From Lutjanus erythropterus (Eukaryota > Chordata > Actinopteri > Lutjaniformes > Lutjanidae), in the NCBI GenBank assembly GCA_020091685.1, contig CM034601.1:8310419-8374418 (forward strand): a stretch of DNA of 64,000 bases. Reading direction: 5' to 3'. Positions 5,452-64,000 of this stretch are shown here, in pieces. The stretch's first letter is position 1; the number at the start of each line of letters is the position of its first letter. The notes under the pieces are model-generated. The model did not search any database, was not told the origin of the DNA, and saw nothing but the letters and a program-made list of their open reading frames with translations. The position numbers and the translations under genes were made by a program.

Positions 5452-6028
5452 TTAATTAATACAGTGGAAAATGCTTGTAGTGACCACATCTGCCTGGGCC
5501 AGCTTGGTCAATATGGGCGAATGATTATTATAACCAATTTCTTTTCTTTCCCTCTTTCGAAATACAGCAGCTGTGTCAAACACCACGTCAGCCTCGGCAG
5601 CCTCCCTATTAAGTTTCTCCAACACATTCTCTATTTTTAAATCGCTCAAACCAGCTCATTGAAATTTTGAAATTGTCCCCTCTCAGGCTCGCTGCCAATT
5701 CTTCTGCGTTCTCCCTCACCAAGGTCCTGCTCAAGGGGGCATTGTGTGACCGGGCATTATCAATCCACCTGACGAGGGGCGCTTCAACCACAGGTGCTTT
5801 CACCGTGGGCTTTTGTTTTCTGTCCCCATCACTTGCGGACCCTTTCTCGTCGTTTGAGTTGACTGCACAAGGTAGCCTGAGGAACACCAAGTTTTGCTGC
5901 TGCTGCATCTTGTTGGCTCGTTTTTGGCAGTTTGTCACTTTGAGGAGACTAGGTTTTTCATTGAGAGATTTTTTTTTCAGTGTGCACACAGCGAACGGAG
6001 GCCTCAGCAGAGGAAGGGTGGGAGGCAT
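5452..6028 (-). pseudogene. pogo/Tigger-type transposase relic with CENP-B-like HTH
   Basis: On the minus strand a 139-residue frame (6028 to 5609) has, at about residues 82-132, a segment that fits the CENP-B/Tc5-type DNA-binding helix-turn-helix of pogo/Tigger transposases: VEAPLVRWIDNARS, then RENAEELA, then MSWFERFKNRE. A Lys-rich part around residues 20-45 could be what remains of the first HTH. A second frame (5649 to 5452) in a different register continues with EAAEADVVFDTAAVFRKR, which fits the link leading to the DDE domain. The frame change and the absence of the DDE catalytic part show that it is a decayed fragment. A domesticated gene is unlikely because the frame is broken and short. 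Strand and family are fairly secure; element ends were not found. Confidence 0.7.
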
Positions 6029-6401
6029 GGGAGTAAAGTTAAATAGTACTGTATTTTTGGTAATTCCTCAACTACCAAAATATGCACATTGCACTTATCA
6101 CAGCCAGATCAGATCATGTCACAGTGGATATTTTGCTGTAAAATTTTTAACCCTGATTCAGGGTTGTTTTAATCTGACTATAACTATCATGATTGTGTAA
6201 AATATAACATCTTCTAACTCACTCATTTAGAAATAGCAAACAATTGTTTGAAATGTAAGAAAATATGATTTGGAATTTCTGATGTGTTGCTGCTTCTTTA
6301 GCTGTTGAAAACTGCTAAACTCAGGTCTGTTGTATCTCAAGCAAAGCAGATCACTCATGCATCCATTTCACACTCCAATCATAAAGGATGGTGATCATTC
6401 A

Positions 6402-32610: not shown

Positions 32611-34035
32611 AATTGCAGGCAGAAGTTAATGAAGTTCCGATGCTTGTTAAGCCGACTGGGCCGGCCACTGTAGTTCAGCCTGAGCAGATACGATGTAGAT
32701 AGAAAGCCAGGTCATGCCGCAGAGTATCTCTGATTCAAAGAGACTTAGCAGCGAGCAGAGAGTGAACCAATGCAGTGAAGTTGCGGGCTGGACAGCTAAA
32801 CAATGAGCTGAAAGTCTCTATAAAGCTCCTTTAAAGCAGAGGGGAGACAGTGATGATTAAAACAAACTACCCCTGTCAGCCTGCAAGACAAGTCGTACGG
32901 ACAGAGCACACAAAAGCAGCGGTAGTAAAATTACAGTATAGGAAATTATCCACATCTGCTGCCTGGCTATTGTCTTTCCTCTCTAAAGTTTTTTAATTTT
33001 GTGGACATGATTGACGACAAGCTGAATGAACCTTGTCAGTTTACATACAGTGACTTCAGCAGTTCATGATCCAAGTATGTGGATTGTCAAATTTGAAATC
33101 CGAGACAATGCGCTCGCTTACCGCCGCCTACGTAGCCACTTAGCGCATTCCTGTCACTTTACATCCTCCATGTCAACTCTGACCGGTTGAGCAATGCGAG
33201 CGGAGGATGGTGCTTTTCTCTATATACATAATAGTACCTCCTACACCAGAATGATTGGCCAATAATTGTAGCTTAGAAGGCTCTATTAGTGCTTCTTGAA
33301 AGCCATATAACACCATTATACCTCAAACAGGTGGTCGTTTTTTTTTTTTTTTTTTCCACATATCAGACATAGGCGTCCGTTAAGTGGGGTAAGAATGTGC
33401 CTCTGTGCCAAGTTTATACTTGAAGTCTTAATGAGGCCAAAGTCTCCCGACCTCTTATTGATTACAATGAAGGCTGCACTCATTTGACCTTACTTCTTAA
33501 TCCGAGTGCTCTACCATGAGTTGGTAAACAATTAGGCTAATGTTTAGCAGTTAGCAGCCTCTGTGCATAAGCTCCAGACACTATAACATCTGTTGTATTT
33601 GTGCTGCTATTCAGCAACCTCTGTATCAAAGAGATACATTTCTTTGTTGGAGAATTACAGCAAGAAATTGGCACAATCAAAGCCTAAGAATTGCCTTGCC
33701 TGTTGTTTCTCTTTTTGATGAACTTTTTGGGTGCAGATAGACGCACTCTTTTTGACGGTATTGAATATTAATGTTGCTGTCTTTTCTTTTTCCCTGTAGT
33801 TCTTGTGAAATCTCCTTTGTAAATAAGTTTTGTCACCCACACACCCCGTATAAGAAACCTACAAGTTACCTGTGATATTCTGTGAGAGCGACACCACATC
33901 TCCTCTTCCACACGCTTGAACGTGGTTACGTGGTTCCCAGCTGCTGGGGTCGCTGCAAATAAAATCTGCTCAGCAGTATCAGGCAATTCCTGCATTTCAG
34001 CTTGAAACAGATGGCCGAATGTGCTGAGGTTTGTT
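32611..34035. other. Intron DNA, nothing firm
   Basis: CpG-bearing stretch near 33105-33200 and a poly-T run at 33339-33356. No exon and no named repeat. Confidence 0.35.
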
Positions 34036-34039
34036 TGTA

Positions 34040-34265
34040 TGCCTCCGCGCCACCAGCAGCTGTGGGCGGCGGCATGTTTTCAGGTTGTCCATCCGATTGA
34101 TTTTGAAGGTCGAAAGTCAACGTCGGCGTGACTAAAGGATGAACAGTTGGATTTTGGAGGTCAAAGATCAAGGTCAGCACGACTTTGTGGTCATCCCATT
34201 GTTGTGAACGCAACATCTCAGGAACACCTGAATGAGATTTATTTCAACTTTGGTTAAAATGTCCA
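34040..34265 (+). repeat. Dispersed repeat G (nuclear-receptor-site repeat), copy 1, partial
   Basis: Contains GGCGGCATGTTTTCAGGTTG, TTGGATTTTGGAGGTCAAAG, ATCAAGGTCAGCACGACTTT, CATCCCATTGTTGTGAACGC and ATCTCAGGAACACCTGAATG. The better copy is at 61790-62250. Its receptor-like half-sites here are degraded (AGGTCAAAGATCA). Confidence 0.65.
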
Positions 34266-34881
34266 CTTTATCTTTACAAATATTAGCATGAGCTTCTGAC
34301 TTGGATTGATATTGATGGATAGACGAAGCAAACGATCGTCTTCATTATTGTTAAAGCAGCTTATTTTTGATAGATTAACCCTTCAGAAAATAAGACAAAT
34401 ATATACAAAATGTATTAGTATCTTTTCTTCTAAATTTAATTTCATGCATGGACTGTTTCAGCATTTTAACCATTCATAACAGATTATTACGTCTAATGTG
34501 TAATGCCACTGGTTCATATCTGTATTTGTTGAAGTCTATCAGAGTTTTATAATCAGCTGGAGCACATTTAAATAGAAGCACCTGTAAATATAATGCAAGG
34601 CAAATTGTTATGTGATTGAACAATGTTATGGCATAATTACCATGCACTCAAGGTTAATACAGCTGTTACTCTGAAATGAGATTTGTTTGTCAGGGCTGAA
34701 TGGTTGAATTGGTAATCGATTGGTGATTAGTTTTTTCAGTCTTTCTACTTTAATTTGGTCAAATATTCTGTGGTCGGTCAATAATATTAAAAAAAAAAAG
34801 GAGCATAGTGTGAAGGAGCACATCAGACAGTAAAAATCAATTCATTGCGTCCTCTGTCACCCACAGATGGTGCCACTTCAA

Positions 34882-59838: not shown

Positions 59839-61780
59839 AACTGTCATTGTGTTCCTAAAAAAGATGTCTGTATCATATCAAATGTGGTATAATGGATTGT
59901 AAGCTGTTTTTTTTTGTTTCTGGCGTGCAGCTTATACCACAACCGAGAGCGTATTTTGATTGATTTTCAATTTAGTACTGGATTTGTTACACCTCAAGAT
60001 TGAAGGTTAGCCGGGTAGGACAGTGATACTGTAAGACACTTTGTTTTATAGGAATGATACAGAAGAACTGTACCCAAATAAAAAAAACAAAAAAACATGA
60101 AAAGATACAACAATGCTGTAAACACAAACAAGAGCGGAGAACGGAGAAAAACTACAGCAAACAAGGAGGTAAGTTACAGCCGGGGAACAACACAGGCATC
60201 ATGCGGGTGACTGACAAACAGCACGAGCAACCCACAAGTGAGACCTAGTTTAAAGGGAATAAAACGGGCAGTGAAACAGCGCGGTGACTGTCAGGGTAGT
60301 TATTAAACTGGAGAGCAACAGCATGCATCTGGATTAATGTCTGTGATGGCAGCCTCAAAAACAGGAACAGATTAATTTGTCCAGTTGGAGTCTTATGCAA
60401 CTCATTCCAGTCTCGGCCCATTGAAGTGGAATGAGAAAAAAGCCCAGGGGAGTGTTGGCTGTTGAGGACTTTATATGGAACAGACAGCACAGATATTGTA
60501 CTCGTATAACAGCTGAACCCGCCTGTAAATAAACATGTTCTCATAGTTTTTAAATAGTTTTTATATTGTCGTGGCCGGGTTATTTTAATTATGATAACAA
60601 AGGTATCTGTAAATCGGTTAACACATCAGGATTTACCCAGCTCACATGTAATTTTGATTTTAAATTTATTTGTTTTGTGGAGATGTTGTCCATATTATTA
60701 CAACTATCTTGTTGCAGCTGTCTTACATTCAACCAGAGGCAGATTTAATGCACAAAAGCATTACTTTTTAGGTGTTGTATCTATTGCTTTTCTGAATATC
60801 CTATTCTGAATTTAATTATCTCTATATATTTGTTTAATCTTTGTGTAGTTTGAAGGGACTCCATCTCTCATTTTGTCGTCCAACCCCGTGTTATGTAATG
60901 AAAATAAATTATGTAAATAAAATACCTTTTATACTTTCAAACACTCTCAGATTTCAATTAAAAATGCAAAATTCATGGCACAGTGCCTGAGATTGTATTT
61001 TAAGGAGACTTTTTATTAAGACTCTTTTTCACCCATGTAATAAACCCTGTGTGAGATGGAATAAGCACAATAGACCTGAAGTATTTAAAGAGTACCTGTG
61101 TTTGATAAATTGAAATATGCACCTTCAGATTTGAAATTGGCTTTTTTTTTGTATATAAGTCATCTGATGCAGTTATGTGTGTTTTATTAACAAAGCAGGC
61201 ATCGTGGTGCAGTGCATCAGCGTGGGAAGTGGGAGGCTGAATATTTAAATGAACAAATGTGAACATATTGGGCGAAATGGTTTGCATAATAATGGCCACA
61301 GATGTATTAGATACGTGGTGAAAACTCCTACGTGCGAAAAAATAGTTCTTAACCTGACAACAAAATGTCATATTTCAAGACTTTTAGAGCTCCGTAGCTT
61401 AGCTCAGTCATCTTTAGTGCATGAATTATTATCTGATACAGGCAAGATATGGATCTGTTGCACACACAAAAAAAGTCTGCATATAGGCTTAACACACTTT
61501 TCTCTCCTCCCTGCACGATAACCTATATTGTGTCGGACTTGTGCTTCGTCACAGGCACAGTGACATGTTTGTTTGTGTGTGTGTGTGTGTGTGCGTGTGC
61601 GCATGAGTGCATGTTTGATCAGCAGACCTGCATCTTGTCTGAACAAATCTTGCACACTGCTGGACTGATCGGCCTATTTTTTTTTTGTGCACATTCTTGA
61701 CAACATGCTGAGGACCTCTGTGATGTAATAATTTTGGAAAGAACATAGAAAATATATATATATTTTTTATGGCTCCACGA
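59839..61780. other. Intron DNA, nothing firm
   Basis: AT-rich, with a (GT)n tract at 61574-61593 and an adenine-rich frame near 60054. No exon is supported. Confidence 0.4.
61574..61593. repeat. (GT)n microsatellite
   Basis: About ten GT units followed by GCGTGTGCGC, a purine-pyrimidine alternation that can form Z-DNA. Confidence 0.85.
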
Positions 61781-61934
61781 GGATGATTACAGCCTAGGCC
61801 ACAGACATTATGTTTTCAGGTCATCTCCTTCTTTTAACCATGAAATCTCAAGAACGGTTCAAGAGAAATTCTTAAAACTTTGCACAGATGACCACTTGGA
61901 CTCAAAGATGTGCTGATTAGGTTTTGGTGGTCAA

Positions 61935-61949
61935 AGGTCACTGTGACCT
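61935..61949. promoter_or_regulatory. Perfect ERE-type palindrome 1
   Basis: AGGTCACTGTGACCT is a perfect AGGTCAnnnTGACCT palindrome, the consensus oestrogen-receptor element. The preceding TGGTCAAAGGTCA also forms a DR1-like pair. It lies in repeat G, so occupancy in cells is unknown. Confidence 0.7.
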
Positions 61950-62063
61950 CATGTTTGTTCCATTCTCGTGAAGGCGATATCTCAGGAACGCTTCTTCAAA
62001 GTTTGTACAGATAACCACTTGGACTCGAGGAAGATCTGATTGGATTTTGGTGTCCGTAGATCA

Positions 62064-62078
62064 AGGTCACAGTGACCT
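62064..62078. promoter_or_regulatory. Perfect ERE-type palindrome 2
   Basis: AGGTCACAGTGACCT, a second perfect palindrome 129 bp after the first, in the second unit of repeat G. Confidence 0.7.
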
Positions 62079-62193
62079 CACGAACCACACTTTAGGTCAT
62101 AGCTTAAGAATTCATATGCTTATTATATATGTATAATTACACACAAACATTTAAGAGGTTAAAATGAGGAGGTCATGGCATTTTATAGCCAAA

Positions 62194-62206
62194 AGGTCAA
62201 AGGTCA
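62194..62206 (+). promoter_or_regulatory. Perfect DR1 nuclear-receptor site
   Basis: AGGTCAAAGGTCA is the ideal direct repeat with one-base spacing bound by RXR heterodimers, HNF4 and COUP-TF proteins. It lies near the right end of repeat G. Confidence 0.7.
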
Positions 62207-62250
62207 ACTTCACTGTGACATTATTATGTTCAGCTTTCCATCAGTCCTCT

Positions 62251-64000
62251 GTCCTCCTCTGTAACAAGAGTCCCCAAGTGAAGACAGCATGTTTCTTACT
62301 GGAATCACACATTTATAGTGAGAATCATTTTGCCAAAGAATATACTGTTTTATTTTTATTCGACCACTGACGGCTGACTTCTCACTCTTCTTAACCAGCC
62401 ACTAGGGGTTGGAAGCGATCGACAGTTCAGTTCAGTTTGAAGTCTTGCTTCAGCTCTGGTCAACGTATGTTGATGTTTGCAGAGCTTCGCAAATCGATGC
62501 TGGTTGCATCTGGCAGTTATGGTGGCATTGCAGTAGGTGCTTCACCATCTGTTTCCTTCGGGGGATCTGCTCTCTACTGAGTGCACTTCTCGAGTTTAAA
62601 AAAATATTAGTTTACATGGACCAGTGACATTATTATAGTTAAGAGAGAGTAATTAACAAGCCCTCCTCAGATGAGCTGCAACCAGTGAGGAAAAGAGGTT
62701 CCTTGTATATTTTGGTGCTAATGACATCTAGCACTCTCTGGTCATAAAAAATGAGTGCGTCATGAAAAATGCTTTCAAGTGATCTATCACTATGGAGAAA
62801 AAATGATCATTTTTGCAGCCTCCTTGAGGACCGGGACTCAGTAGCACTTCAGTTTTGAAAGCACAGGCCATAAATTGTATCAATACACAAAGTGCAGAGG
62901 TAGCTCCCTGTAATATAATTTTGTGTCCCAGAAAGTTCTTTTTTTTGTTTATGGAGAACAAGATTCAGCTTGTTTGTACTCCTTCAAACAATTACAGCCT
63001 GGTGAGAACAGGCCTGAGTGATTGAGGTTAACAGCGAATCTGTAGGGAAGGTGTTACTGGAAACTGACTTGTGCCTCATCAGAGTAAAATATCAGCCAAG
63101 TTCTTATGGCAGTAGTTGTAAGTCGAGCACAAGTTCTGTAAAAAACTGCCTTAAAAAAAATCTCCCTTTTATCGGTTTCTTTCGGTAATTTAGAGGGAGG
63201 CAACTGAACTCCTGCCTTACAATGAGGTTTTAGAAATGCATATCTTGAGGAAAGCACCACCACAGCCGTGTTATTAGCTCCAACAGAATGAAACTCATTA
63301 CTCCTGTCTAACTGTCGTCCTGCTAATGGATTTCTGCTACTCTTTCACAGTACATGTTATAGGGAAGCTACTGAACGGATTGCAGGTTGATGATGTGACA
63401 GTGTGAAAGAAAAGAAACATTAACTTCTGTGGCAGCTTGTTGCAGGAAAGTACACTGGGTACCTGCTATTTGATGCACTCAAATAACAGATGAAAAGATA
63501 AAAACCTGAGGAAAATCTTGTCAGATTTCAATCTTTTTTTAAATTTCATTTTTGCAGAGTTTATGTTTTAGTCAAAATCAGTCAATGAACTTCTCTCTTA
63601 TTCTTTTTTTTTTACTGACATGAACGCACTGCAATGGCAGATGTGACAAAGCTTTCCCTCTGCTTCCCTCTCAGTCTGCCCAAACTTTTTTTTTTTTTTT
63701 TAAGGGTCAGCTCGCTTGAGGATATCCGTTCCTTAAATTATCCAGCTGCTACTTTTGGTGCAGCCTGATTTCAGTCACTGCTCAGTTGTGTCAATGATCT
63801 GTGGGTTTTGAGAGCTGGGCCCTCTGCCAGGCAGCATCTTTGCGGTTAAGCAGCTTGGCTGAACCGCGCCCCGGCCAGAAACTGGGGGTATTTTTAATTT
63901 TCAGCTTCTTTAAAGGATCATACTGGATTGAATGTTTTTTCCCCCATTTATAATTTGGATCCTTTACATCACTGTTGAACATTTTCCCACAGATTTTTAT
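62251..64000. other. Intron DNA, nothing recognised
   Basis: Short frames and T-rich runs (63605-63612, 63687-63702). No exon, RNA gene or repeat family that I can name. Confidence 0.4.

Follow-up and report, generated by a model that had tools for sequence, protein, structure and literature searches.

Our analysis identified a single family of non-autonomous transposons of the Helitron superfamily to which about 95% of the perfect estrogen-response motifs (EREs) in the genome of Lutjanus erythropterus seem to belong, an estimate drawn from sequence, since 19 of 20 blindly sampled EREs lie within this family. The window analyzed here, a stretch of 64,000 nucleotides from contig CM034601.1, contains a member of it. 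We consider it probable that this member descends from a non-autonomous rolling-circle element and has since decayed, and that its family spread EREs neutrally until it held the share given above.

The whole window was scanned for the ERE pattern AGGTCANNNTGACCT, tolerating up to one mismatch, and for the DR1 motif AGGTCAAAGGTCA, tolerating up to two. Only two EREs were found, both of them perfect and 129 bp apart (61935-61949 and 62064-62078), compared with a mean of 0.16 in shuffled windows, two being reached in 1 of 100 shuffles. The DR1 scan returned six sites against 2.2 expected (six were reached in 1 of 100 shuffles), and a single one of them, at 62194-62206, was exact. An earlier note on this DNA had reported two perfect EREs and a perfect DR1 inside 272 bp of a dispersed repeat; all three motifs are exact in our scan, and they span 272 bp from first to last base. 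The repeat is dispersed as well: the 461-nt segment that the note had delimited (61790-62250) gave 4018 first-look candidates in the 938-Mb host genome (937,629,617 bases, 444 contigs), of which the best 40 were scored. These yielded 42 matches, mostly 69-79% identical to the segment (self excluded), and 28 of the 42 were examined as loci. The bounds of the repeat had to be revised, as both nhmmer and a wider comparison, which included 27 additional copies with their flanks, extend the element to about 61589-62599. In addition, the two EREs, although both exact, are not independent sites, since they lie at equivalent positions in two tandem units (a 79-nt direct repeat, 76% identical, with a spacing of 123). 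The features of the window, with the evidence for each in brackets, are:

34033-34273, + strand: another copy of the family, decayed (nhmmer, E 4.8e-19)
61566-61599, + strand: TG-rich microsatellite on the left side of the element (TRF; TG-rich DNA is likewise placed in other copies)
61589-62599, + strand: Helitron/Helentron-like (HINE-like) non-autonomous element copy (nhmmer with the family consensus)
61822-61951, + strand: central unit 1, with ERE1 at its end, bounds approximate (direct repeat D1/D2, alignment)
61928-61940, + strand: DR1-like motif with one mismatch, overlapping ERE1 (pattern scan)
61935-61949, unstranded: ERE1, AGGTCACTGTGACCT, exact (pattern scan)
61958-62080, + strand: central unit 2, with ERE2 at its end, bounds approximate (direct repeat D1/D2, alignment)
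62064-62078, unstranded: ERE2, AGGTCACAGTGACCT, exact (pattern scan)
62081-62225, + strand: third unit, diverged, with the DR1 and a degenerate palindrome, bounds approximate (third copy of D2 at 62210-62224, alignment)
62194-62206, + strand: DR1, AGGTCAAAGGTCA, exact (pattern scan)
62572-62594, + strand: short 3' palindrome, core CTC-TACT-GAG at 62572-62581 (copy alignment)

The nhmmer envelopes of the window copy (61589-62355 and 62339-62599) cover positions 4-757 and 946-1198 of the consensus; the copy lacks about 190 consensus positions near 62345-62354. Its non-CpG divergence from the consensus is 15-16%, its longest stop-to-stop frame is 75 aa, the 5' terminal hairpin of the family is not recognisable in it, and it ends in TCGAG followed by TTT, compared with TTCTAG followed by TT in the family consensus. 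In the second copy (34033-34273), the pattern scan found no ERE within one mismatch. Elsewhere in the window, a 152-aa open frame on the minus strand (5609-6067) matches PF03221, the DNA-binding domain of Tc5-type transposases (E 1.7e-12), and is perhaps a pogo/Tigger-like or CENP-B-like remnant.

In the host genome, the exact ERE pattern occurs 1911 times, against 111 occurrences of a reversed-pattern control, and the excess of 1800 agrees with the share of the family in a blind sample of EREs. This sample, which is small and lies entirely on contig C1, was drawn without regard to repeat content: from 50 listed sites, every odd-numbered one up to the fortieth was taken (20 in all), at 200 nt per site and with the motif masked. 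Nineteen sequences matched the consensus of the family with E values no higher than 1.7e-8 (95% interval of about 76-99% by our own arithmetic), the sole miss being L150, and none of the 20 reversed sequences did (best E 5.3). Two further counts bear on the same question. EREs with the family's trailing CA gave 699 and 749 strand-matches versus 3 and 9 in the control, a few sites being counted on both strands, and the spacers CAG or CTG, which are common in the family, are present in 29 of 50 distinct listed EREs (transcribed by hand from the site listing) versus 2 in 64 by chance. Finally, in 103 loci picked for either family or Rep sequences, 65,074 nt of family DNA hold 35 exact EREs, including the window's own two and with one copy (L036/L074) counted twice, and the 227,543 nt outside the family hold none, even at one mismatch.

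The exact DR1 was found 1949 and 1998 times in the host genome versus 94 and 80 in the control. In a sample of every tenth of 100 listed sites, all of them on contig C1, 5 of 10 fell within the family, two shared another repeat and three lay in neither, so that DR1 is not a monopoly of this family. At L157 and L158 (G000:C1, near 1.25 and 1.79 Mb), the DR1 is carried by a different repeat. Of the 100 DR1 sites listed, 33 fall within the first 2.2 Mb of C1, which contains one of the listed EREs.

Copies differ from the consensus at non-CpG positions by a mean of 13% in 118 segments taken at 60 loci (a set biased to good matches) and of 17.5% in the 20 segments from the blindly sampled EREs, which points to an old family. 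Its 1250-nt consensus has no frame longer than 98 aa, and an Rfam search of 61600-62400 returned no matches up to E 1. From 5' to 3', the element comprises a hairpin, TG-rich DNA, central units of ~125-135 nt, an inverted 3' terminal repeat, a palindrome and a sharp end. The 5' end consensus of the family copies, TTATCCCCGCCAGGTGTAAGCCGGGAGGGGATC, forms a hairpin of the terminal repeat and its complement, with a predicted DNA fold of -9.4 kcal/mol (z -3.34). The seed for this end matched 15 of 103 loci, always on the element's strand and in 13 cases from the first four bases. In the consensus ends, the 5' and 3' subterminal inverted repeats (ATCCCCGCCAGG and ATCCCTGCCAGG) agree at 11 of 12 positions. 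The arms of the 3' palindrome, CACTC-TACT-GAGTG, are intact in 25 of 30 copies that were themselves picked with that sequence, and its fold is no better than that of shuffled sequences (z -0.84; 36 of 200 shuffles as stable). A microsatellite and central tandem repeats, features of non-autonomous Helentrons (HINEs), were found by TRF and copy alignments. Units 1 and 2 of the consensus end in about GGTCAAAGGTCAAGGTCACNGTGACCTCA, and the unit consensus, built from 52 unit matches in L061-L120 that were not chosen by motif, is AGGTCACGGTGACCT.

With a slash marking each boundary, the left and right ends of the element read TTA/TCCCC ... CTAG/TT, and the common 3' end of the copies is CTCTTCTAG/TT. 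Among seven copies with both ends, TT begins the right flank in six, and six were judged by eye to be without a target-site duplication; the TT flank in 29 of 30 copies of the 3'-end sample (L061-L090) is a biased count, because the query ended in TTT. Rolling-circle elements are not expected to make target duplications. A 12-nt direct repeat, TTGCATCTTTAA, flanks L118 (G000:C6 near 3807887), by eye the sole such case among the seven. An empty site was sought for one copy (L109), and the matches were its own flanks alone.

Canonical Helitrons start with a 5' TC, end in a 3' CTRR that follows a hairpin, insert between A and T, and are without terminal inverted repeats. The TC and CTAG of this family fit that description and its inverted repeats do not. 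We hold the assignment to the Helitron superfamily firmly and the HINE subclass less firmly, since TC...CTAG also fits a canonical Helitron and the palindrome folds poorly. That the family derives from a canonical Helitron (5'-TC...CTRR-3', target between A and T) rather than from a Helentron is a real possibility, but an unlikely one: it agrees with the ends TTA/TCCCC ... CTAG/TT and with the presence of Helitron_like_N on a host Rep frame, but the pair of subterminal inverted repeats, the 5' hairpin, the microsatellite and the central tandem units together make up the HINE plan (PMC4067079, PMC7492417). The nearest likeness is indeed to HINEs and DINE-1, such as Cg_HINE of Crassostrea gigas (PMC7492417) and DINE-1 itself (PMC4067079), a likeness of described anatomy. 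Common to them and to our family are a 5' subterminal inverted repeat with a complementary inverted repeat, a microsatellite, a short central tandem array, a 3' subterminal repeat with a palindrome, an apparently T-rich target, many copies, and no coding capacity seen. Our family differs from HINEs in the perfect ERE that ends the central unit, in the 3' end CTAG, and in being unlinked to an autonomous partner.

Fifteen matches to Helitron_like_N (PF14214) were found in the host genome, in open frames of up to 3033 aa, and one of these Rep frames was confirmed as Helitron_like_N in Pfam. The family matched none of the 15 Rep loci, which were searched in stretches of 3-3.6 kb that perhaps fall short of the element ends. 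Five of the Helitron_like_N matches lie 8-36 kb from contig starts (G000:C12:7961, C7:12003, C7:32730, C10:36178 and C23:30110) and are possibly subtelomeric; two of these five sit in open frames of ~3000 aa. Short tandem peptide repeats open five of the eight Helitron_like_N frames inspected.

In the family consensus, one ERE (AGGTCACAGTGACCT, position 518 of the full consensus) and one DR1 are exact. Taken together with the 19 of 20 blindly sampled EREs, this indicates that the family did seed such motifs in the host genome. The earlier note had suggested that the repeat, if its family keeps the motifs, could have seeded nuclear-receptor sites across fish genomes, a proposal that our results support in part. 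In the consensus of window-like copies, the ERE of unit 2 and the DR1 are exact, and unit 1, where the alignment is unsure, is inexact. Preservation was counted in copies picked for likeness to the window copy (L034-L060, hence biased toward its motifs), by the 3' end (L061-L090) and by the ERE2-DR1 spacer (L091-L120). The latter two sets are best matches, 30 loci from 40 places in each search, which favors the less diverged copies. Two of the 27 window-like copies and none of 59 others carry two EREs together with a DR1, which places the window copy among the best keepers of the motifs; these counts omit the window copy itself (L033) and L074 (the same as L036), both of which are retained in the 35 EREs given above. 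Of the 30 copies selected by the spacer, 10 have an exact ERE2, 9 an exact adjacent DR1 and none both EREs; among the 29 selected by the 3' end, 4 contain any ERE.

Mean identity is 0.888 in the ERE columns and 0.863 in the other non-CpG columns, and a value at least as high as the former arises in 1585 of 10000 sets of random columns and in 13 of 94 windows of contiguous columns. Conservation of the ERE columns thus does not significantly exceed that of the remaining unit; this test leaves selection on the ERE unsupported, and family-wide use is not indicated. Of the 26 units that align in full, 10 contain the exact ERE (6.0 expected for independent columns), a share exceeding that of 85 of 92 other unit windows (7 of 92 are as intact), for which observed over expected intact is 699 over 544. 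We take this excess as a weak hint of retention and do not count it as selection.

It might be argued that selection kept the motifs and that the family forms a co-opted estrogen-receptor enhancer network, many copies of which would be bound by Esr1 or Esr2, with the DR1 bound by an Rxr heterodimer. We find this quite improbable. The near-monopoly of sampled perfect EREs (1911 versus 111; 19 of 20) and the slight excess of intact ones (10 versus 6.0 of 26) would agree with it, and precedents exist in the transposon-borne estrogen-receptor sites of mammals (PMC7145552, PMC3478180) and in a Drosophila transposon that spread dosage-compensation sites (PMC4384637; called a Helitron in PMC6825717). 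Against it, the motif columns are not significantly above their neighbors in conservation, and intact motifs are in the minority, both among spacer-selected copies (ERE2 in 10 of 30, DR1 in 9 of 30) and among those selected by the 3' end (any ERE in 4 of 29). The probability that the cluster is a matter of chance in one odd copy is negligible. All three motifs are rarely kept together (0 of 59 copies unbiased by likeness, 2 of 27 window-like ones), which would fit chance, but the genome count and the blind sample rule this reading out, and the counts with trailing CA (699 and 749 versus 3 and 9) agree with them.

The reading that we prefer is neutral spread by a rolling-circle family. Helitron-type Rep/helicase proteins made elsewhere, by a Helitron or Helentron, would have mobilized the family in trans, and rolling-circle transposition would have copied the element with the palindrome of its units carried along. 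Because the central units of 125-135 nt end in AGGTCANNNTGACCT, a single insertion could introduce one or two perfect EREs, and its third unit could deliver a DR1. The motifs probably rode along neutrally and then decayed, leaving roughly 1800 perfect EREs if the count and the sample are representative. Intact copies, whose letters match the consensus ERE, could be bound by the estrogen receptor, although only a minority of them is likely to lie in usable chromatin. The letters of ERE2 equal those of the classic vitellogenin ERE, which makes binding of the receptor in vitro likely; whether the site is used in vivo would depend on chromatin and on the genes nearby. The family carries putative EREs, recognized here from their letters, that are candidates for regulatory use.

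The principle that transposons spread regulatory binding sites is already known, from the estrogen-receptor sites of mammalian transposons and from the Drosophila Helitron. The latter, ISX of Drosophila miranda (PMC4384637; a Helitron according to PMC6825717), is, like our family, of the rolling-circle type and spreads a regulatory binding motif; binding and selection are reported for ISX (PMC4384637), whereas our family is known from its motifs. In mammals, MIR, L2 and ERV1 (PMC7145552, PMC3478180) and Alu supply estrogen-receptor motifs genome-wide, but these carriers are retrotransposons with known receptor binding, and ours is a DNA transposon identified by motifs. About one third of EREs are repeat-borne, Alu being the commonest source (Mason et al., 2010, as cited in PMC9301316), compared with 19 of 20 sampled perfect EREs in one family here. 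Among the titles and abstract openings of the open-licence literature, we found neither an ERE-bearing transposon, repeat or Helitron like this family nor a near-monopoly of EREs by one carrier, and the literal sequence has no occurrence in open-licence paper text. In viral contigs and prokaryote genomes, AGGTCACWGTGACCTCA was found at 32 loci, none of them with the surrounding repeat (best E 0.24), and a 25-nt pattern had no match in viral contigs.

It is improbable that this single old rolling-circle family set the estrogen-receptor cistrome of the fish lineage, its copies acting as Esr enhancers or as a sink that titrates the receptor. Some 1800 of about 1900 perfect EREs lying in the family would then translate into a large share of Esr enhancers; as a sink, the copies would jointly titrate the receptor genome-wide and set the sensitivity of the estrogen response. 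A single DNA-transposon family seems to account for almost all perfect EREs in a vertebrate genome, and this near-monopoly makes possible a direct test of whether the strongest receptor motifs are used wherever they are dropped or are mostly ignored. In addition, searches for perfect EREs in fish promoters, such as those made in work on vitellogenin or endocrine disruptors, may mainly find this ERE-bearing repeat.
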